Origin: Saccharomonospora viridis DSM 43017
GTDB taxonomy: Bacteria; Actinomycetota; Actinomycetes; Mycobacteriales; Pseudonocardiaceae
Direction: 5' to 3'
DNA: 64,000 nt
Assembly: GCF_000023865.1 (NCBI RefSeq)
Contig: NC_013159.1
Coordinates: 894,001 to 958,000 of the forward strand
Shown here: in pieces, positions 1,913 through 13,942 of the stretch
How the letters are laid out: every line of letters starts with the position of its first letter
Numbering within the stretch: position 1 is the first letter of the stretch
Notes under the pieces: generated by a model
What the model saw: only the letters and a program-made list of their open reading frames with translations
What the model was told of the DNA's origin: nothing
The model's database searches: none
Position numbers and translations under genes: made by a program

Positions 1913-3420
1913 CCGATCTGACGAGGCTGTCCGCCGCCGAATTGGCGGAGAAAATCCATTCGCGTGAGGTGTCCGCCGAGGAGGTGACCAAGGCTCATCT
2001 CGACCGGATCACCGAGGTGGACTCCGAGATCAACGCGTTCCTGCACGTCGACGCCGAGGGCGCGCTCGCCGCGGCGCGCGCTGTGGACGCCAGTCTGGCC
2101 AACGGCGAACAGCCGGCGTCGCCACTGGCGGGTGTGCCGCTGGCGTTGAAGGACGCCTTCACCACGCGTGGCATGCCGACGACGTGTGGTTCGCGGACGC
2201 TGGAGAACTGGGTCCCGCCGTACGACGCGACGGTGACGCGCAAGCTGCGTGAGGCGGGCGTGCCGATCCTCGGCAAGACCAACATGGACGAGTTCGCCAT
2301 GGGGTCCTCCACCGAGAACTCGGCGTTCGGTCCGACGCTCAACCCGTGGGACCTCACGCGTGTCTCCGGTGGTTCGGGTGGTGGTTCGGCGGCGTCACTC
2401 GCCGCGTTCGAGGCCCCGTTGGCCATCGGCACGGACACGGGGGGTTCCATCCGCCAGCCCGCTGCCCTCACCGGCACGGTCGGCGTCAAGCCGACGTACG
2501 GCGCTGTGTCGCGCTACGGGATGGTGGCGTTCTCGTCGTCCCTGGACCAGGGTGGTCCGTGCGCGCGCACTGTGCTCGACGCGGCCCTGCTGCACGAGAT
2601 CATCGCCGGTCACGACCCGCTCGACTCCACGTCGATCGACGTGCCGGTTCCAGCGTTGGCGGAGGCCGCCAGGCAGGGCGGCCGCGGTGATCTCTCGGGC
2701 GTGAAGGTCGGCGTGGTGCGTGAGCTGCGTGAGCTGGGTGGTGCGTCCTACCAGCCCGGTGTGGTGGCCTCGTTCGAGGCGGCTGTGGCCCAGCTGCGTG
2801 AGCTGGGTGCGGAGGTCGTCGAGATCTCGTGCCCGCACTTCCCCTACAGCCTGTCCGCGTACTACTTGATCGCGCCGAGCGAGTGTTCGTCGAACCTCGC
2901 CCGGTTCGACGCCATGCGGTACGGGTTGCGCGTGGCCGACGACGGTGAGCACAGTGCCGAGGAGGTCATGGCGGCCTCTCGCGAGGCCGGCTTCGGTCCC
3001 GAGGTCAAGCTCCGCATCATGCTGGGCACGTATGCGTTGTCTGCGGGTTACTACGAGGCCTACTACGGCTCGGCGCAGAAGGTGCGCACGTTGGTCGCGC
3101 GTGACTTCATGAACGCCTTCGAGCAGGTCGACGTGCTGGTGTCGCCGACGACGCCCACGACCGCGTTCCGGCTGGGAGAGCGGGCGGAACCGCTGGAGAT
3201 GTATCTGGCCGATCTGTGCACCATCCCGACGAACCTCGCGGGTAACACGGCGATGAGCGTGCCCAGCGGTCTGTCCGACGACGGTCTGCCGGTCGGATTG
3301 CAGATCATGGCGCCGGCTCTGGCCGAGGAGCGCCTGTACCGCGTCGGCGCGGCCTACGAGGCGGCCCGCGGTCCGGTGCTGGACGAGATGCCTGAGCTGA
3401 AGGGAGCGGCGGCGAAGTGA
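1909..3420 (+). CDS. gatA: Asp/Glu-tRNA amidotransferase subunit A
   Basis: GatA is the amidase subunit that releases ammonia from glutamine for the GatB reaction. The 503-residue protein has the amidase-signature triad: Lys81 (G-V-P-L-A-L-K-D), cis-Ser156 (G-G-S-G-G-G-S) and the nucleophile Ser180 ([11 protein letters not shown]). Spacing matches known GatA proteins. It starts with GTG inside the gatC stop and its own stop overlaps the gatB GTG, so gatC-gatA-gatB form one tightly coupled operon. Confidence 0.98.
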
Positions 3421-5467: not shown

Positions 5468-6617
5468 GCACGACGCGGTCGTCGCTGGACACCGGGTCAC
5501 CACCGTCCTTGTTGACCGTGCCCGCGACGGCGACGTCCTGAGTCACCTGGTCGAGGCTGCCGATCCGGCCGTAGCCGGGGCCGTTCCTGCCGTCCAACGT
5601 GGTCTGGGGGTCACCGCTGACCGAACCTTCCGCGGTGAGGGGGAGGTTTTGGATGTTGCCGGCCTCCTCCGTGGACACGGCGAGGGTGTCGGTCCAGTCG
5701 GAGCAACCACTGACCCCGGGTTTGTCCTTCCACGTCCACACGGGCGAGGTCAGTTCCTCGCCCGCTTCGATGCGGTACACCGCGTCGTGTCGTTCGGTCC
5801 GGTCGGTGACCCACAGTCGGGAGCCGTCCATGGCCTGGCACATCCCGCCGGGTGAGTGCAGGCCGCTGGCGTACACGGCCGAGTCGGCCTCGGGGTTGTC
5901 CTCGGCGGGTCTCCCCGACGCGTCGATGCGCAGGATCTTGCCCGCCAGCGACGTGCGATCGGCCGCGGCACGAGGGTTCCCCGCGTCTCCGGTGGCGACC
6001 AGCAGGGACCCGTCCGCGGTGGCCAGGAGCGCGCCTCCGTTGTTCTTCGGCCCCTTCGGGATTCCCGTGAGTACGGGTTTGGCCGATTGTCCCTCGGCGA
6101 ACCGGACGACCCGGTTGTCGGTGGACGTCGTGACGTAGGCGAAGACGAGGCCGTCCTCGGCGTAGGTGGGGGAGAGCGCGAGCCCGGTCAGTCCCCCGTC
6201 TCCGGCGGCCTGGACGTCGAGAGCGGCGAATTCGCGTTCTTCTCCGTCGGTGTTGACGAGGAACACCCGGCCACTGCGTCGTTCCCCGGCGAGCGCGGTG
6301 ACGCTGGAGCCGTCCGAGGGCAACGCCGCGACGGCCGACACGGTGTCCAGACAGGTGGCGATGACCGCCTTGTCGAAGTCGGTGCAGCCCTCGGGGGGAC
6401 GCATGGGAGTCGTGGAGGTCGAGGGGGGATCGGGGATGACGTTGGGGCCGGCTTCGGGCAACTGTGGTTGGGGTCCGGCCTCGGCGGTGAGTTCGGGTGC
6501 CGCGTGCCAATCGGTGGCGGCGGTGGAGTCGTCGAATTCGGCGCACCCCGCAAGCCCCAACGCGGCACAGGCCACGACGGTCATCGGCCACGAGCGTCTC
6601 GGAGCTGCCCTGCGCAC
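5427..6617 (-). CDS. LppZ-like lipoprotein with sugar-dehydrogenase beta-propeller
   Basis: The product (about 396 residues) has a lipoprotein signal: basic N-terminus, hydrophobic stretch and lipobox L-G-L-A-G-C. The mature part resembles the soluble glucose/sorbosone dehydrogenase propeller (G-D-G-G-L-T-G-L-A-L-S-P, Y-A-S-G-L-H-S-P-G-G-M, W-T-W-K-D). It takes the place of M. tuberculosis lppZ (Rv3006). I prefer GTG 6617, which starts M-R-R-A-A-P-R-R-S-W right before the hydrophobic core, over the start at 6683, which nearly abuts the divergent gene. Substrate and PQQ dependence are unknown. Confidence 0.85.
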   Translation of the reverse strand: MRRAAPRRSWPMTVVACAALGLAGCAEFDDSTAATDWHAAPELTAEAGPQPQLPEAGPNVIPDPPSTSTTPMRPPEGCTDFDKAVIATCLDTVSAVAALPSDGSSVTALAGERRSGRVFLVNTDGEEREFAALDVQAAGDGGLTGLALSPTYAEDGLVFAYVTTSTDNRVVRFAEGQSAKPVLTGIPKGPKNNGGALLATADGSLLVATGDAGNPRAAADRTSLAGKILRIDASGRPAEDNPEADSAVYASGLHSPGGMCQAMDGSRLWVTDRTERHDAVYRIEAGEELTSPVWTWKDKPGVSGCSDWTDTLAVSTEEAGNIQNLPLTAEGSVSGDPQTTLDGRNGPGYGRIGSLDQVTQDVAVAGTVNKDGGDPVSSDDRVVLIVRQPASGSGRD

Positions 6618-6689
6618 AATGGTCCAGCCTAGGGCGTCGGGCGTGAACCTTCGGTAAGCGGGGCTGATGAAATCGGCCACCATGGGTGT

Positions 6690-7601
6690 GTGACGATCAC
6701 TGTTCTCGTTCCGGACGACGACGGCGTGGCCGCGCTGTCGGAAGTGGCCGGGGTACGACCGGTGCGATACAGCCTCGACGAACCGTTGCCGGCGGAGGCC
6801 GCCGAGGCCGAGGTGCTGATCCCGGGGGCCCGAGCCGCCGATGTGCTACCGCTGCTCGAGAAGACACCCAGGTTGCGGCTGATCCAGTTGTTGTCGGCCG
6901 GTGCGGAGGACTGGACGGGGGTCCTTCCGGAGGGTGTGCTGTTGTCCACCTGCCGTGGTGCACACGGTGGGAGTACGGCCGAGTGGGTGATGGCGGTCCT
7001 GCTGTCGTGGTGCCGACGACTGCCGGAGTTCGCCGAGGCGCAGCGGGCTCGCCGATGGTCCCGACTCGTCTCCGACACGCTTCAGGGCAAGCGGGTCCTC
7101 ATCGTGGGGGCGGGGGACCTCGGACAGCAGTTGCGTCGCAGGCTGGAGCCGTTCGACGCGTGGGTGACGATGGTGGGACTGTCGGCCCGCGACGACATCC
7201 ACGGAGTCGAAAAGCTGCCCGCGCTCCTGCCCGAGGCCGACGTCGTGGTGTTGTTGGTGCCGTTGACCACCCGGACCCGGGGGATGGTCGACGCGAAGTT
7301 CCTCGCGTCCCTTCCCGATGGGGCGTTGCTGGTGAACGCTTCCCGAGGGCCGGTCGTGGACACCGCGGCCTTGTTGGCCGAGTTGGAGTCGGGACGGCTG
7401 GAGGCGGCGTTGGACGTCACGGACCCGGAGCCGTTGCCGGAGGACCATCCGTTGTGGGGGTTGCCGAACGTGGTCATCACCCCGCATGTCGGCGGTGCGG
7501 TGGTGGACGCGCGTCGGCGTTCCTACGTGGTCGCGGCGGCGGAGATCGGACGATACGTGCGGGGTGAGCTGCCGAACAACCTCGTCCGCGGTGAGTACTG
7601 A
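6690..7601 (+). CDS. D-isomer-specific 2-hydroxyacid dehydrogenase
   Basis: This 303-residue NAD(P)-dependent oxidoreductase interconverts 2-oxoacids and D-2-hydroxyacids. It has the Rossmann motif G-A-G-D-L-G, the N-A-S-R-G-P-V-V-D segment with the substrate Arg, the A-L-D-V-T-D-P-E-P-L-P segment (Glu/Asp region) and the catalytic His in I-T-P-H-V-G-G. It has no C-terminal ACT domain, unlike SerA at 21731. GTG start at 6690, divergent from the LppZ-like gene with about 70 bp between starts. Glyoxylate/hydroxypyruvate reductase is a likely role, unproven. Confidence 0.9.
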   Translation: MTITVLVPDDDGVAALSEVAGVRPVRYSLDEPLPAEAAEAEVLIPGARAADVLPLLEKTPRLRLIQLLSAGAEDWTGVLPEGVLLSTCRGAHGGSTAEWVMAVLLSWCRRLPEFAEAQRARRWSRLVSDTLQGKRVLIVGAGDLGQQLRRRLEPFDAWVTMVGLSARDDIHGVEKLPALLPEADVVVLLVPLTTRTRGMVDAKFLASLPDGALLVNASRGPVVDTAALLAELESGRLEAALDVTDPEPLPEDHPLWGLPNVVITPHVGGAVVDARRRSYVVAAAEIGRYVRGELPNNLVRGEY

Positions 7602-7697
7602 GCACCGGTAGCACACCATGGCCTGGCGGGAGGACCGGGTGGTCCCCCGAAGGGGGTCGGCCGGTGACCGGGCCGCGACCCGTGGGCCACGGCCAGG

Positions 7698-8192
7698 TCA
7701 GCGCAACATCGATCCGCCGAAGTAGTCGTCGTCGTCCAGATCGCTCTCCTCGCCGGTGGACTGCGGCGTGGACGGGGAAGCCGCATCGGACTTGGACGTG
7801 ATCGACGACGATGGGCCACCCGGCTCGATGATGTCGTCGAGGGCGTGACCCTCCTGGATCATCAGGTACGCCTGGCGCATGCCCTCGACACCGCCTTCCA
7901 ACGCCTTGCGGACCTGGGGATCGTCGAGGAACCGCCCGGCGGCGATGTCGTTCCAGGACAGATCGCCCTTGTCGATGCGGGCCTGGAGTTCGCGTAGTTC
8001 CTTGGGCGCGTCCTTGCTGCGGGCGTGCTCGGTGATCTGCTCGATGTCCTGCTGCGACAGCCCGCTCTTCGGGAGCTTGGCCTCCAGCTGTTTGGCGTTG
8101 CTGATACTGCGGTCGAGTCCGAGTTCCGCCTGTTCGAGTTGTGCCATCGCCGCGGCAATGCGCGGATCCCGGGAAAGGTCGGGACCGGTCAT
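7698..8192 (-). CDS. Hypothetical helical protein at the end of the Rhs cassette
   Basis: The 164-residue product has no membrane segment or signal peptide. Residues 1-120 are charged and predicted helical (repeated A-Q-L-E-Q-A, K-E-L-R-E-L-Q-A-R-I). Then comes a Ser/Thr/Pro-rich acidic linker ending D-L-D-D-D-D-Y-F-G-G-S-M-L-R. It is the last gene on the minus strand downstream of the Rhs toxin and lies 46 bp from the next unknown gene. I recognise no family. A chaperone or secretion accessory role is only a guess from position. Confidence 0.75.
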   Translation of the reverse strand: MTGPDLSRDPRIAAAMAQLEQAELGLDRSISNAKQLEAKLPKSGLSQQDIEQITEHARSKDAPKELRELQARIDKGDLSWNDIAAGRFLDDPQVRKALEGGVEGMRQAYLMIQEGHALDDIIEPGGPSSSITSKSDAASPSTPQSTGEESDLDDDDYFGGSMLR

Positions 8193-8238: not shown

Positions 8239-8679
8239 TCAGGGTCGACCACGTGACGTGACGATCCAGTTCTCGTCTTCTTCTTCGAATACGCCAACCA
8301 CCGTCCCGTCGGTGGGACAGACGGTGACGAATTCCAGTGAGCCGAATTCCGTCTGCAGCGCACGAAGGAACTCGCCGGGCGCCGCTGCGCGGACCCGGGC
8401 CCACGGCAACCTGAACGCACCGGGGCAGGTGGGGCTGAGGTGGAAGGCGTTGTCGTCGGTGAGAACGCCGACATCACGGGCGATGTCCCACCAGATTTGC
8501 TCGGTCCTCGCCACGCTGTCCGCCGTTTCGTGATCGACGCGGACGTCCGGTCGGACATCCAGGTGGATGACCGACCGGACGGCGCTTTCCGGTGTCACGC
8601 CCGCGACTGTCCACGCCTCGCCGAGCAGAGTCATGCCCGCCGCCTCAAGCAGTGTGGCCCGTTCGGCCCGAGAGGTCAT
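8239..8679 (-). CDS. Hypothetical protein, possible second immunity or accessory factor
   Basis: The 146-residue soluble protein shows no motif I can assign. It has a central W-W-D-I-A-R-D-V-G segment and an acidic stretch (F-E-E-E-D-E-N-W-I-V) near the C-terminus. Mixed alpha/beta composition, no signal peptide. It lies between the EF-Tu-like gene (94 bp upstream) and the helical hypothetical, all on the minus strand downstream of the Rhs gene. Small unknown genes behind Rhs toxins are often immunity genes; that is the only basis for a role. Confidence 0.75.
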   Translation of the reverse strand: MTSRAERATLLEAAGMTLLGEAWTVAGVTPESAVRSVIHLDVRPDVRVDHETADSVARTEQIWWDIARDVGVLTDDNAFHLSPTCPGAFRLPWARVRAAAPGEFLRALQTEFGSLEFVTVCPTDGTVVGVFEEEDENWIVTSRGRP

Positions 8680-8773: not shown

Positions 8774-9139
8774 TCACGCCTGCTCGTCCTCGGTCAGCAC
8801 CTCGGTGATGACGGCGTGGGCGACCTGTTTCGGACCTTCCAGAATGACCAGTTCAGCGCCTTCGTGGAGGTACGGCCGAGCCAGTTCGGGGGCGAGGAAG
8901 CCGACCTTGACGAGCTCGGTGGTCTGTGGCGTCGGATCGATCCGCTGCAACAGAACGCTGACGGTCCTGGGGTCCGTGGCGGGCCACCCCGGTTCCGATT
9001 CGACCGCATCACCGGTCCGGAACGTCGTCGTCGACGCATAGACCGGTGCCGACGGGGGCCCGGAACGCCGCCCGCCCTGCTCCGGGGGAAGCCATGTCAC
9101 GGTGGCGAGGGCGAGCGGGTTCTCGATGTTCTCAAGCAT
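8774..9139 (-). CDS. Putative Rhs immunity protein, EF-Tu domain III-like
   Basis: The 121-residue protein follows the Rhs toxin, and its ATG at 9139 overlaps the toxin stop by 8 bp, so the two are coupled. The sequence resembles the third (beta-barrel) domain of elongation factor Tu. It has V-T-W-L-P-P-E-Q-G-G-R-R, where EF-Tu has L-S-K-D-E-G-G-R-H, then T-T-F-R-T-G-D against F-R-T-T-D. It ends I-L-E-G-P-K-Q-V-A-H-A-V-I-T-E-V-L against I-R-E-G-G-R-T-V-G-A-G-V-V-A-K-V-L. No GTPase domain. The coupling argues for immunity; the fold is my motif reading. An in-frame start further upstream lies inside the toxin gene and is less likely. Confidence 0.8.
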   Translation of the reverse strand: MLENIENPLALATVTWLPPEQGGRRSGPPSAPVYASTTTFRTGDAVESEPGWPATDPRTVSVLLQRIDPTPQTTELVKVGFLAPELARPYLHEGAELVILEGPKQVAHAVITEVLTEDEQA

Positions 9140-12100
9140 GTCCGCTGTTACTACCTTCCCAGATCCTGATTCCATCGCCTTGCTGGTTGATCTGCTCGAG
9201 CTGATCGGCGTCGGCGTACACAGCGGGCCCGATGCCGTCCAGGTTGTCACCTGGATGCCGATGCAGGCCATCGACCACGGACGACGGAACGTTGGTCTCC
9301 ATCGTCACACCGTCACCCTGGTTGAGCACCTCTCCCCACCGGTCGGCATGTTCCCCGTGGAGCGCGAACCACTTGCCTTCCGAACTCCCACCTCCGGATT
9401 CGAAGCGGCCGGTCTCGGCGATCGCGTCGAACTCCCTGCCGTCGACGTTGCGGTAGAGGGTCACCGCGTCGTCGTCGCCACAACTCATGAGCCCGAGCGG
9501 GTCGAGCCACCGCAGCGGATTCACCACATACGCGTAGTGGTTCGGGGACGGTCTGAGCCCGAGCGGGTCGCACGAGACGTAGCGTCCGGTGTCCGGGTCG
9601 TAGTAGCGGTGGTAGTTGTAGTGGAGCCCGGTCTCCGGATCGCTGTACTGGCCGGGGAAACGCCACGGCGTCGACGCACTGCCGTGGTGCTTGATGACCG
9701 TTTTCCCCCAGAGCGTGGTGCGGTTGCGCCACGCGAGGTTGCCGGAGCCGTCCAACAGCTCCGTCGACGTGCCGATGCCGTCGGTGATCACCGCGTGGAA
9801 GTCGCCGCCGACCCACTGCTTCGCGGGGGACAACCGGCGCCGGATCTGGGTGAGGGGCCGGAACCGGCGAGGATGCCATTCCCATGTCGTCGCGTCGACG
9901 CCCGCGAGTACCTGCTCGGCGAGTCGCACGCCGTCCCAGATGAACTCGGTGCGTTCCACGACGGTGGAGCCGTCGGGTGCGAGCTTGTGCTTGGCGATAC
10001 GCCTGCCGAGGGCGTCGTAGAGGTAGCGCCAGCGGGAACCGTCCGGCGTGCCGACCTCCACCAGGCGATCCTCGGCGTTCCAGGTGTAGTGCCACCGGAG
10101 CGTTGTCCCGCCCGCCTCGTACCGCACTTTGGTGACGACGCGACCTTGCCGGTCGTAGGTGTATCGGACGTTGCCCGCGGTGGTCAATCTGGTGCCGTCG
10201 TAGGCATACGAGTGTTGGCCATGGCCGCTCGGCGTATGCCAGCTCGCGTTCCGGATGTTGCCCGCGCGGTCGTAGGAATACTGTTCCTGTCCGCCCGGGC
10301 CGGCCACCTGCCTCACCCGCCCGGTTCCGTCGAGTTGGAGCCGCACCGTGCCGGTGGATGTGTCGTCCACGGCCTGTGGGGAGCCGTCCGGTCCGTAGCG
10401 GTACGACCGCTGCTGCAGCAGCCGGTAGCGCGGGGGCACCGTCGGTGTTCCGTCGGCGATCGAGATCGATTGGTCGATCAGGCGGCCGTTGCGGTCCCAT
10501 TGCTGTGCGATCGTGGCGCCGTTGTCGAGTCGGCGTTCGATCTCACGGCCCGCCCCATCGAAACCGAATGTGATCATCCGGTCCGCCATCCGGAGTTCCC
10601 GAGGACACCCTCGGACGTCGTAGGACCATGTGCTCTCGACCCCGGTCGACGTGCGGCGGTGGACCCGTCTTCCCAACGCGTCGTAACGAGACGTCACCGT
10701 GTGGCCGTTGATCTGCTCGCTGAGCACCCGGCCACGCGCGTCTCGCCGGTAACGCACGGTGGCGTCGGGACTGGTCGCGGACAGCATCCTGCCCATCGGG
10801 TCGTACTCGAAGGTCGACACCCTGTCCTGGGCGCGTCGTTCGACGACCCGGCCGGAGAGATCCCTGCGGAACGTGGTCGTCTCTCCCGCACCGTTGACCC
10901 TGCTCGTCAACTGCCCGGCCGCGTCGTAGAAGTAGCGGATCTCCCGGCCGTCGTAGTCGATCTCGCGCACCACGTTGCCCGCGGCGTCCCGTTCATAGCG
11001 CCACGTCAGGCCGTGCGCGTTGGTGACCGCGGTCAAGCGAAGCAGCGGATCGTAGGTGTAGGTGAGGGTGTTGCCTTCCGCATCGGTGACCGAGACGGGA
11101 AGGTCGAACTGGGTGTAGCTGATCCGCCTCGTCAGCCCCGAGGGACCCACGTACGCGATCTCGTTGCCTTCGCCGTCGTATTCCCACCGTTCGGTGGTGC
11201 CGTCCGGCAGGGTCCGCCACGCCCGTTTGCCTTCGACGGTCCAGCCGAAGCGCGTGACGGCACCCACTTCGTCGATGATCGCCGTGATGCGTCCGAAGTG
11301 GTCCCGTTCGAAGCGTCGTGTCGCCCCTGAGGGGTCCGTCACCGCGAGCGGCAATCCGGCGGGATCGTACTCGATACGGCGGGTCTGGCCGAGCGCGTCG
11401 GTGATGGCGGTCGCGTTGCCCCGCTCGTCGTAGGAGTAGCGGGTCGTCGCACCGGTCGGATCCGTGAGGGACACCCGGTTGCCCCGCTCGTCGTAGGACT
11501 GCCGCCACACCGCGCCGTCGGGATCGACCACGGAGGTGGGCAGGCCCCACTCGTTGTACTCGGCGCGCGACTGTGTGCCGTCCGGTCCGCTGACGCCGGT
11601 GAGGTTGCCGTCGTCGTCGTAGCTGTAGCGAGTGGTGCGGCCGAGCGGGTCCGTGCGGGAGATCAGCCTGTTGTGCTCGTCCCATTCGCTGGTCGTGGTG
11701 TGTCCGAGCGGGTCGGTCTCCGCGATGACGTTGCCCTTGGCGTCGAGCTGGTAAACGGTGCTGTGGCCGAGAGCGTCGGTGAACCGGGTGATTCGGTTGT
11801 CGGGGTCGTAGGAGAACGTGCCGCTGAGGTACTTGCTGGAGCTGTGGTTGGCGACGCAGCGGCCGGCGTCGTCGTAGAAGTAGTGGTACCAGTGTCCGTT
11901 TCGGTCGGTCCACCGGACGAGCCGTGACTGATCGTCGTAGGAGAACCGCAAAGACCGTCCGGACGAGTTGACCACTTCGGCCAACAGGCCGGCATCGTCG
12001 TAGCGGTAGCGGACGAGCCGGGTCGTGGCCGTTGCCTCGGCCCTGTGACGAAGCCGCAGTTCGGTGATGCGGTCCCGGTCAGTGTCGACCTCGATGTGGT

Positions 12101-13589
12101 AACCGCCGCTGTGCCGGACGGCGGTGACACAGCCGACGGCATCGCGATCGAGGTCGAAGCGGTTGCCATTCCGGTCGGTGACGGCGGTCAACCGACGGAC
12201 GGGATTGTCCCCCGCCGCGAAATGCAGTATCCGGCCGGACGTACGGTCGGTGACGCACCAGCCATCGGCCGTGGCGGCCAAGGTCCATCGCGGGCCGGTG
12301 ACGGGAAGTACTTCGCCCTCCTCGGGGACCCGGGGATAGACCAGGACCATGCCGTCGTCGGCGACGAACACGACGCCGTCGTCGTCGAACTCCAGTCGTT
12401 GATCGAACGTCGACGCCCAGGAGCGGCCGTAGAAGCGACCCGCACGGTAGGACGACACATGCGTGCGTTTGATCACCAGCGGCAAGGCTCCGGGAAGTTC
12501 GACATCGGTCTGGCTCAGCACGACCTCACCGGAGGACACGTCCACGGGGTCGTTCTCACAGACCCGGTTCTGTTCCGGTGTCCGGGTGGTCTCCGGGTCC
12601 TGCGGTCGCGCTAGGCCCTCGCCGTCGCCACCGGAGTGCTGCAGCGCGTTGCTTCTGCCGGGTCGGTTTCCGTTGCCGGTGCCGGATGTGGCCGTGTCCG
12701 TGCTGCTGCTGGAAGCGGTGTTCTGTTCGCGTGCGCTCGCGCGTTCGTCGACGAGTCCCCGAGCGTTCTCCGAGGCGCTGGACGTCGAGGTGCGGAGATC
12801 CCCCGCCGCGCTGGAGGCCTGCGTCGCGCCGTCCCTGATCTGGCTTCCGCCGTCCCTGATGTCGGTGACGCCTTTGTGCACGTCGTTCGCGACGTTCATC
12901 AGGTCGCTGATGCTGTCCGCGCTGCCCAACTTGGACAGCGCCGTGCCCACATCCATGATCCCGTTGACGACCTGCGTGGCTCCGTCGATGATCGACTTGA
13001 TGCCCTCGATCAGGTCCATGATGGCGTTGTAGATCTGGATGCCGTCGTAGACGAGCTTGACGGCACGGCCCCAGCCGACCACCGGGATCGGCAGCATCGC
13101 CGCCGCTTCGATCAGCTTGTTGACCAGGCGCTCGATCAGTTTCAGCACCTGATCGCAGGCGCGTTTGGAGCCGTCGGCGACCTTGCTCAGCGCAACGCCG
13201 ATCAACTTCGCGGCCTGGGCGTCCGCTTCCAGCCCCACGGTCCAGGTGATGCCGATCAGATTGGCGAAGCTTTCCGCCGCCGGCCCCGACCAGGAGGGCT
13301 GCAGTTCCTCCGCACCGGCGTTGATGTTCTTACGCACCGCCTGCAACGCGGCGCACACGTTGTTCCACTGCGCCGCGGCGGCCGCGATCTTCTCGAAGTC
13401 ACCGGTGATCGGCGTGATGATCGAGGACACGAGGTCCTCGCCCACGATCTTCTGCCACACCCAGTTGACGGCCTGCACCTGGAAGCCGGCGTTTTTGATC
13501 GCGTCCTCGATCGACGAACCGCCGGACAGGCCGGGATCCTGGCCGAGTATCTCCAGTGGGTTCTCGACCTCGCTGTACGCCGCGGTCAT
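9132..13589 (-). CDS. Rhs-repeat polymorphic toxin, type VII-type N-terminus, ART-like C-terminus
   Basis: A 1485-residue protein. Residues about 65-115 form a WXG100-like helical hairpin (Trp100-Ser-Gly102), followed by helices to about 290, a low-complexity linker, and a DUF6531-type entry (P-V-D-V-S-S-G-E-V-V-L near 349). More than 900 residues of Rhs/YD repeats (Y-D-x-x-G-R/N) follow, ending at the D-P-L-G-L core boundary (about 1363-1367). The last 118 residues differ: L-Y-R-N-V, E-F-D-A-I, G-R-F, S-S-E-G-K-W-F-A and H-A-D-R-W-G, a pattern of ADP-ribosyltransferase-like toxin domains. Export by a type VII system is inferred from the WXG region and the EspC-like partner. ATG overlaps the upstream stop (ATGA). 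Confidence 0.92.
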   Translation of the reverse strand: MTAAYSEVENPLEILGQDPGLSGGSSIEDAIKNAGFQVQAVNWVWQKIVGEDLVSSIITPITGDFEKIAAAAAQWNNVCAALQAVRKNINAGAEELQPSWSGPAAESFANLIGITWTVGLEADAQAAKLIGVALSKVADGSKRACDQVLKLIERLVNKLIEAAAMLPIPVVGWGRAVKLVYDGIQIYNAIMDLIEGIKSIIDGATQVVNGIMDVGTALSKLGSADSISDLMNVANDVHKGVTDIRDGGSQIRDGATQASSAAGDLRTSTSSASENARGLVDERASAREQNTASSSSTDTATSGTGNGNRPGRSNALQHSGGDGEGLARPQDPETTRTPEQNRVCENDPVDVSSGEVVLSQTDVELPGALPLVIKRTHVSSYRAGRFYGRSWASTFDQRLEFDDDGVVFVADDGMVLVYPRVPEEGEVLPVTGPRWTLAATADGWCVTDRTSGRILHFAAGDNPVRRLTAVTDRNGNRFDLDRDAVGCVTAVRHSGGYHIEVDTDRDRITELRLRHRAEATATTRLVRYRYDDAGLLAEVVNSSGRSLRFSYDDQSRLVRWTDRNGHWYHYFYDDAGRCVANHSSSKYLSGTFSYDPDNRITRFTDALGHSTVYQLDAKGNVIAETDPLGHTTTSEWDEHNRLISRTDPLGRTTRYSYDDDGNLTGVSGPDGTQSRAEYNEWGLPTSVVDPDGAVWRQSYDERGNRVSLTDPTGATTRYSYDERGNATAITDALGQTRRIEYDPAGLPLAVTDPSGATRRFERDHFGRITAIIDEVGAVTRFGWTVEGKRAWRTLPDGTTERWEYDGEGNEIAYVGPSGLTRRISYTQFDLPVSVTDAEGNTLTYTYDPLLRLTAVTNAHGLTWRYERDAAGNVVREIDYDGREIRYFYDAAGQLTSRVNGAGETTTFRRDLSGRVVERRAQDRVSTFEYDPMGRMLSATSPDATVRYRRDARGRVLSEQINGHTVTSRYDALGRRVHRRTSTGVESTWSYDVRGCPRELRMADRMITFGFDGAGREIERRLDNGATIAQQWDRNGRLIDQSISIADGTPTVPPRYRLLQQRSYRYGPDGSPQAVDDTSTGTVRLQLDGTGRVRQVAGPGGQEQYSYDRAGNIRNASWHTPSGHGQHSYAYDGTRLTTAGNVRYTYDRQGRVVTKVRYEAGGTTLRWHYTWNAEDRLVEVGTPDGSRWRYLYDALGRRIAKHKLAPDGSTVVERTEFIWDGVRLAEQVLAGVDATTWEWHPRRFRPLTQIRRRLSPAKQWVGGDFHAVITDGIGTSTELLDGSGNLAWRNRTTLWGKTVIKHHGSASTPWRFPGQYSDPETGLHYNYHRYYDPDTGRYVSCDPLGLRPSPNHYAYVVNPLRWLDPLGLMSCGDDDAVTLYRNVDGREFDAIAETGRFESGGGSSEGKWFALHGEHADRWGEVLNQGDGVTMETNVPSSVVDGLHRHPGDNLDGIGPAVYADADQLEQINQQGDGIRIWEGSNSGHA

Positions 13590-13942
13590 CCGGCGCTCCC
13601 CACGGTCACGTCGCCGACACCGTCGACCAGGTTGCCGAGCCGGTCCATTTCGGCTCGTGAGGCCTCGTCGCGAGCCTCGTACTCGTCGGCCGCGTTGAGG
13701 AGGTTGTCACGGACCTCCCCCATCTTTCCGCTCGCGAAGTCCAATGTGTCGGCGTACAGGCCGACCACACCCGTCACCACGGGGGCGAGTAGGGCCAACA
13801 GTCCGGTGTAGCCACTGGTGTCGCCGCCCTTCTCGGTGGCATGGCGTCCGATGGCCGCGAGGTGATCCGCTTGCTGTCCCAACAATTCCGCGCATCCCCG
13901 CAGCTCTGCGGGTTCGACGTGATGTCCGCCACCATTCGGCAT
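13586..13942 (-). CDS. EspC/WXG100-like partner of the Rhs toxin
   Basis: A 118-residue, mostly helical protein without signal peptide. The N-terminal part (E-P-A-E-L-R-G-C-A-E-L-L-G-Q-Q-A-D-H-L) resembles EspC-type ESX-secreted proteins. A Gly/Ala/Val-rich stretch at about 48-62 and a charged helix follow. It is the first gene of the cassette and its stop overlaps the Rhs ATG by 4 bp. Such proteins usually travel with, or chaperone, the large effector encoded next; that role is inferred. Confidence 0.85.
   Translation of the reverse strand: MPNGGGHHVEPAELRGCAELLGQQADHLAAIGRHATEKGGDTSGYTGLLALLAPVVTGVVGLYADTLDFASGKMGEVRDNLLNAADEYEARDEASRAEMDRLGNLVDGVGDVTVGSAG

Follow-up and report, generated by a model that had tools for sequence, protein, structure and literature searches.

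The EspC-Rhs cassette and its small third gene

The window analysed here, the whole stretch of 64,000 nucleotides from Saccharomonospora viridis DSM 43017 (NC_013159.1, positions 894,001 to 958,000), has a GC content of 68% and belongs to a host genome of 4.31 Mb on a single contig. On its minus strand lie, in this order, an EspC-like gene (13942-13586), an Rhs gene (13589-9132) and a gene for a protein of 121 amino acids (aa) (9139-8774), hereafter the small gene and small protein. The initial annotation, made from the sequence alone, had described these as three coupled genes with neighbour overlaps of 4 bp (EspC-like/Rhs) and 8 bp (Rhs/121-aa gene), which the open reading frame (ORF) coordinates confirmed. 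The system is best read as a type-VII-type Rhs polymorphic toxin whose C-terminal domain, here called the tail, is modelled as an ADP-ribosyltransferase (ART) fold, together with a probable dedicated immunity gene whose product is modelled as domain III of elongation factor Tu (EF-Tu). Its features are as follows:

13586..13942, minus strand: EspC-like type VII secretion partner gene, 118 aa (PF10824, E 1.9e-6, 28.7 bits, cut-off 23.5)
9132..13589, minus strand: Rhs polymorphic toxin, 1485 aa (PF05593, E 1e-105; DUF6531; TIGR03696)
13077..13466, minus strand: WXG100-like N-terminal region of the toxin, aa 42-171 (WXG100_2 22.1 bits, WXG100 23.2 bits, both under cut-off)
9489..12551, minus strand: DUF6531, RHS repeats and Rhs core, aa 347-1367 (Pfam, NCBIfam)
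9132..9488, minus strand: C-terminal toxin domain, aa 1368-1485 plus stop, ART fold (modelled)
8774..9139, minus strand: immunity protein candidate, 121 aa, EF-Tu domain III fold (modelled)
9068..9073, minus strand: Gly23-Arg24 codons of the immunity protein, corresponding to EF-Tu Gly317-Arg318 (E. coli numbering) in the structural-alignment register
8834..8839, minus strand: Glu101-Gly102 codons of the immunity protein, corresponding to EF-Tu Glu378-Gly379 in the same register
8966..9013, minus strand: acidic PGWP loop, aa 43-58 of the immunity protein, a putative toxin-contact element

The Rhs protein has the make-up of an Rhs polymorphic toxin, that is, RHS/YD repeats (19 stretches matching PF05593) and an Rhs core (Rhs_assc_core, TIGR03696, aa 1293-1367, 83.5 bits against a cut-off of 32.5) ahead of a variable tail at aa 1368-1485. 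A WXG-like N-terminus and an EspC-like partner had been claimed for the cassette; the EspC assignment stood, with a match over cut-off, while WXG100 was found only below cut-off, and the WXG100-like region is a probable type VII export signal judging from its sequence. One EccC-type match over cut-off, representing type VII secretion machinery, is located elsewhere in the genome. A scan of five carriers out of the 12 having an intact tail showed that the tail is borne by differing proteins, namely T7SS_signal-Rhs in L040, Rhs with SpvB/DUF6443 in L043, and carriers without any Pfam match in L039 and L037. The small ORF could also be read as 165 aa with a start falling within the toxin tail; the 121-aa start coincides with start codons that relatives, L030 and L031 among them, have where the toxin gene ends.

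Pairing of the tail with the small gene

Of the 297 genomes of the window's taxonomic family, 13 have the tail and 26 the small protein; all 13 tail genomes are among the 26, and in each the two matches are adjacent. Six of the 26 were set aside, leaving a core family of 20/26: the matches in G123 and G138 are probably due to chance according to their alignments, and G064, G113, G162 and G175 were assigned to a standalone sister family. G111 and G044 have only remnants of the small gene.

Counting this search together with 23 further loci, several of them from the same genomes, gave 18 distinct tails. Twelve are intact (the window, G173, G185, G053, G256, G279, G179, G026, G003, L034, L037 and L040) and the small gene directly follows every one of them. 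The remaining six are disrupted, being out of frame in G024, G167 and L036, riddled with substitutions in G160 and G207, and reduced to a remnant in G044; the small gene is still open beside five of these six. A programmed frameshift was considered for the split tails of L035 and L036 and rejected, since the frames of the tail pieces differ between the two, and both were treated as disrupted genes. Of eight loci compared, seven have 1-8 bp shared between the end of the toxin gene and the beginning of the small gene, and in the eighth a gap of 1 bp lies between them. In the genomes covered, the small gene is an obligate neighbour of the toxin. In Nocardia vaccinii (L041), it stands third after a T7SS_signal-Rhs-Tox-HNH-EHHH toxin gene and an Imm50 gene, which is the usual spot for spare immunity genes (polyimmunity); the array there (6272-7710, plus strand) consists of Imm50, the EF-Tu-like protein and a 115-aa protein without a family.

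The proposal that the small gene is an immunity gene is well supported by these comparative data, i.e., by pairing, adjacency, retention beside broken toxins and the L041 array, and on gene content the small protein is very probably the immunity protein of the tail. Core members without such a tail were found in six cases (G086, G250, G136, G289, G034 and L041, with 1.5 kb to 7 kb inspected per side) and, taken with the sister family, could suggest an unrelated housekeeping or regulatory gene instead; this is very improbable given that 0/12 intact tails lack the small gene, that the two genes overlap or abut in 8/8 loci, that the small gene stays open beside five of six broken tails, and that it sits in a polyimmunity array. 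A mirror-tree comparison of the 12 tail/small-protein pairs gave r 0.89, reached by none of 5000 permutations, a correlation that joint inheritance can also produce. For the small gene, three comparisons put dN/dS at about 0.10-0.27, and for the tail three put it at about 0.07-0.14; dS was saturated in a fourth comparison.

Beyond the taxonomic family, the tail was found in one of 396 genomes of a phylum-wide sample, the window's own. An order-wide sample of 298 genomes had 13 with a member of the small-protein family; five of these matches are strong (E below 1e-30) and come without exception from the taxonomic family of the window, and the other eight are weak. Single cases in other Actinomycetota are L034, L036, L037, L040 and L041. 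In its own genome the window gene is the sole match to the small-protein family profile; neither protein had a match in plasmid searches, and viral contig scans found no relative.

Several further observations concern this distribution. The sister family (also L044-L049 and L052) consists of free-standing proteins of ~110 aa with the motif WLTxEQGGRxSGPP, and no tail of this kind was present in the stretches read around those loci. Two records of Saccharomonospora iraqiensis (L032 and L033) have an open tail frame with many substitutions at positions conserved elsewhere, and both have an open small gene. L037 has, 3′ of its immunity gene, another tail-like sequence that is divergent (2546-3028, plus strand; partial profile match, E 7.5e-6); it matched no Pfam or NCBIfam family and is possibly a silent toxin cassette. 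In L012/L028 (G250:C16), a longer ORF immediately 3′ of the first EF-Tu-like domain carries part of a second copy. Two more genes lie downstream of the cassette in the window:

8239..8679, minus strand: 146-aa gene, no Pfam match over cut-off and no NCBIfam match
7698..8192, minus strand: 164-aa gene, homologues beside the cassette in relatives

Among the loci read, the window and L003 have the 146-aa protein 3′ of the pair; it could be the product of a second immunity gene. The 164-aa protein likewise has no family assignment. Its homologues follow the small gene in L003-L007, and one lies beside a small-gene remnant in L019; this protein may be part of the export module.

Modelled folds of the small protein and the tail

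Structure search and alignment showed that the small-protein model is an EF-Tu domain III beta-barrel in the same register, and in fold searches with the small protein all matches listed were EF-Tu. The EF-Tu domain III likeness claimed from the sequence was therefore borne out by the model, and the small protein almost certainly has the fold predicted for it. The aligned span covers 110 residues of the small protein and 93 of EF-Tu domain III, and two ungapped stretches with 6/18 and 6/23 identities to EF-Tu agree with the structural register. PF03143 gave no match at E<=1 for the window protein or seven relatives (four core, three sister family), the four core relatives matched no Pfam family, and neither the small protein nor the tail matched any family of Pfam, NCBIfam, PHROGs or PADLOC over cut-off or better than E 0.05. 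HH-suite comparison with EF-Tu was weak (6-7%), with an EF-Tu alignment of Neff 1.7 and usable sequence from 11/23 loci.

By the end points of the structural alignment, Gly23-Arg24 corresponds to EF-Tu Gly317-Arg318 and Glu101-Gly102 to Glu378-Gly379. According to PMC10653918, domain III of EF-Tu has a strictly conserved pocket close to tRNA and tmRNA that is made up of Gly317, Arg318, His319 and Glu378, Arg318 is required for E. coli viability, and single mutation of Glu378 or His319 changes inhibitor binding little. G23, R24, E101 and G102 are invariant in 16/16 rows of alignment A1, as are A10, W16, P29, F40, F81, G94 and V106; the A1 rows came from a similarity search and are biased toward close matches. 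A second set, A4, was picked by the motif [EDT][EQ]GGRxSGPP, which did not select the A1 rows, so that conservation of those columns in A4 is partly by construction. His319 is not retained, the small protein having R25 at this position, which is variable. R24 is kept by 12/12 members beside an intact toxin and by 10/11 others among 23 family members; the exception, G167, lies beside a broken toxin and is a single member that proves nothing alone. Keeping the residues that form the EF-Tu pocket near bound tRNA and tmRNA would also suit a small protein that acts on the victim side, binding EF-Tu partners (tRNA, EF-Ts) or EF-Tu domain I and so shielding EF-Tu. We consider this highly unlikely, since the protein would need to act on EF-Tu, a very abundant factor, and since pairing with one toxin family fits direct toxin binding better.

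Residues 1368-1485 of the toxin were modelled as an ART fold, in keeping with the ART-like tail first proposed, and the tail very likely has this predicted fold. Among 350,542 PDB chains its best Foldseek match was TreTu, which is reported to ADP-ribosylate EF-Tu (PMC10469887, PMC12288458). The match to TreTu fits the idea of EF-Tu as target, and on present evidence it is about evenly balanced whether the tail acts on EF-Tu. The likeness is a fold match only, as TreTu was not returned at E<=10 when the tail profile was compared with PDB sequences, and single-sequence PDB searches with the tail and the small protein found neither EF-Tu nor any ART. Within the model, R13 lies in strand 8-15, is kept in 12/12 intact tails and fits the position of the putative catalytic Arg on strand 1. 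The invariant acidic residues of the tail are E19, D73 and D84.

Proposed EF-Tu mimicry, its alternatives and known systems

As a whole, the system is best explained by an EF-Tu-directed toxin with target-mimic immunity, an explanation that we put forward tentatively and at slightly under an even chance. Its supported parts are the gene order, the two modelled folds, the pairing and the small gene retained beside broken toxins; from these we infer the export route, the EF-Tu target, toxin-immunity binding and mimicry. Two independent structure searches, one with the small protein and one with the tail, both point to EF-Tu, and the placement of invariant G23, R24 and E101 on EF-Tu Gly317, Arg318 and Glu378 was counted in favor of mimicry. 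Immunity by EF-Tu mimicry is a tentative proposal, and so is its specific form, a decoy in which a free-standing EF-Tu domain III might catch an EF-Tu-directed ART toxin via the Gly317-Arg318-Glu378 pocket.

Under this proposal, a type VII route would export the Rhs toxin with its EspC partner, and the tail would be released in a neighbouring, competing bacterium, where it would modify EF-Tu after recognising a face of domain III. The immunity protein would present that same face, including the Gly317-Arg318-Glu378 pocket, and occupy the toxin before it encounters EF-Tu, so that kin would be protected; further contacts close to the active site may come from the acidic loop, which is specific to this family.

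Several results weigh against EF-Tu mimicry. Of the standalone relatives that lack a toxin of this kind, 7/7 retain G23 and R24 and 6/7 retain E101; as the pocket is largely kept in toxin-free relatives, the reason for its conservation may be purely structural. RhsP2 superposes on the tail better than TreTu and has the highest VIA Z, and no invariant Glu was found near tail strand 5 (modelled strand 89-92) in the 12 intact tails. The shared pocket and the RhsP2 superposition would suit a barrel that is merely a scaffold for an immunity protein plugging the ART NAD cleft, for example with the acidic loop, the target being RNA or another protein. The F40-S61 interval containing this loop varies from 7 to 20 residues across the 23 members and is longer in the 12 toxin-linked members (9-20, median 19) than in six orphans (7-18), with p 0.008 when relatedness is ignored; loop residue E47 is present in 12/12 toxin-linked members and 7/11 others. 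A plug-like contribution is thus also possible, and blocking of the catalytic site by ART-toxin immunity proteins is described for RhsFi (PMC13324451) and for a Tni5 model (PMC13285283). Nevertheless, a plug on a scaffold gives no reason why the antidote shares the fold of the factor attacked by the tail's best Foldseek match, and we regard it as less likely than not.

The lack of an invariant Glu near strand 5 would be consistent with an ART-fold enzyme that degrades NAD, as Tne5 and Tne2 do, and has no macromolecular target. Tne5 has an ART-like modelled fold, yet hydrolyses NAD(P) (PMC13285283), and Tne2 (6b12) is in the tail's Foldseek list with E 0.70. However, Tne2 ranks only 31st, behind TreTu and RhsP2, and the EF-Tu-like partner would be left without a reason; such an enzyme is an improbable reading of the tail.

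Immunity proteins seldom betray the target of their toxin, and here the fold of the antidote itself suggests one. If EF-Tu mimicry is true, it would indicate a route for the origin of immunity genes, in which a domain is split from the target or shaped like it, and would provide a natural mimic of the EF-Tu surface where a trans-translation inhibitor sits; the toxin could then dock on, or even modify, EF-Tu domain III. The possible range of EF-Tu-directed ART toxins would extend from Gram-negative type VI systems to type VII-type Rhs proteins of Actinomycetota.

The known system nearest in tail fold is TreTu/TriTu, a Salmonella Rhs ART toxin modifying EF-Tu (PDB 7zhl, 7zhm). It differs in showing no sequence match with the tail profile and in being delivered by type VI secretion, whereas the putative route here is type VII-like. 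TriTu is said to lie as a lid over the TreTu active site, and the title of Jurenas 2022 reportedly names the modification of EF-Tu by TreTu. RhsP2/RhsI2 is an RNA-modifying ART pair (PDB 7rt7) whose likeness to the tail comes from superposition; RhsP2 has an R-Y-E triad whose Glu sits where strand 5 begins (PMC12340436), in contrast to the tail family with no invariant Glu there. Unlike EF-Tu domain III, the small protein is free-standing, without a GTPase domain or domain II, and is not recognised by PF03143. The immunity families of Pfam and NCBIfam include none that it matches. A term search of the first 300,000 characters of Zhang 2012 (PMC3482391) found no EF-Tu, elongation factor or mimic, and our literature search, which lay mostly outside subscription papers and leaves absence unproven, found no EF-Tu-like or target-mimicking immunity protein among the listed entries and abstract openings it covered. 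The immunity families of polymorphic toxins (Zhang 2012) have the same gene order and pairing logic as the present cassette. Polymorphic toxins and ART tails are already known, and what appears to be new is an immunity family with an EF-Tu-domain fold.
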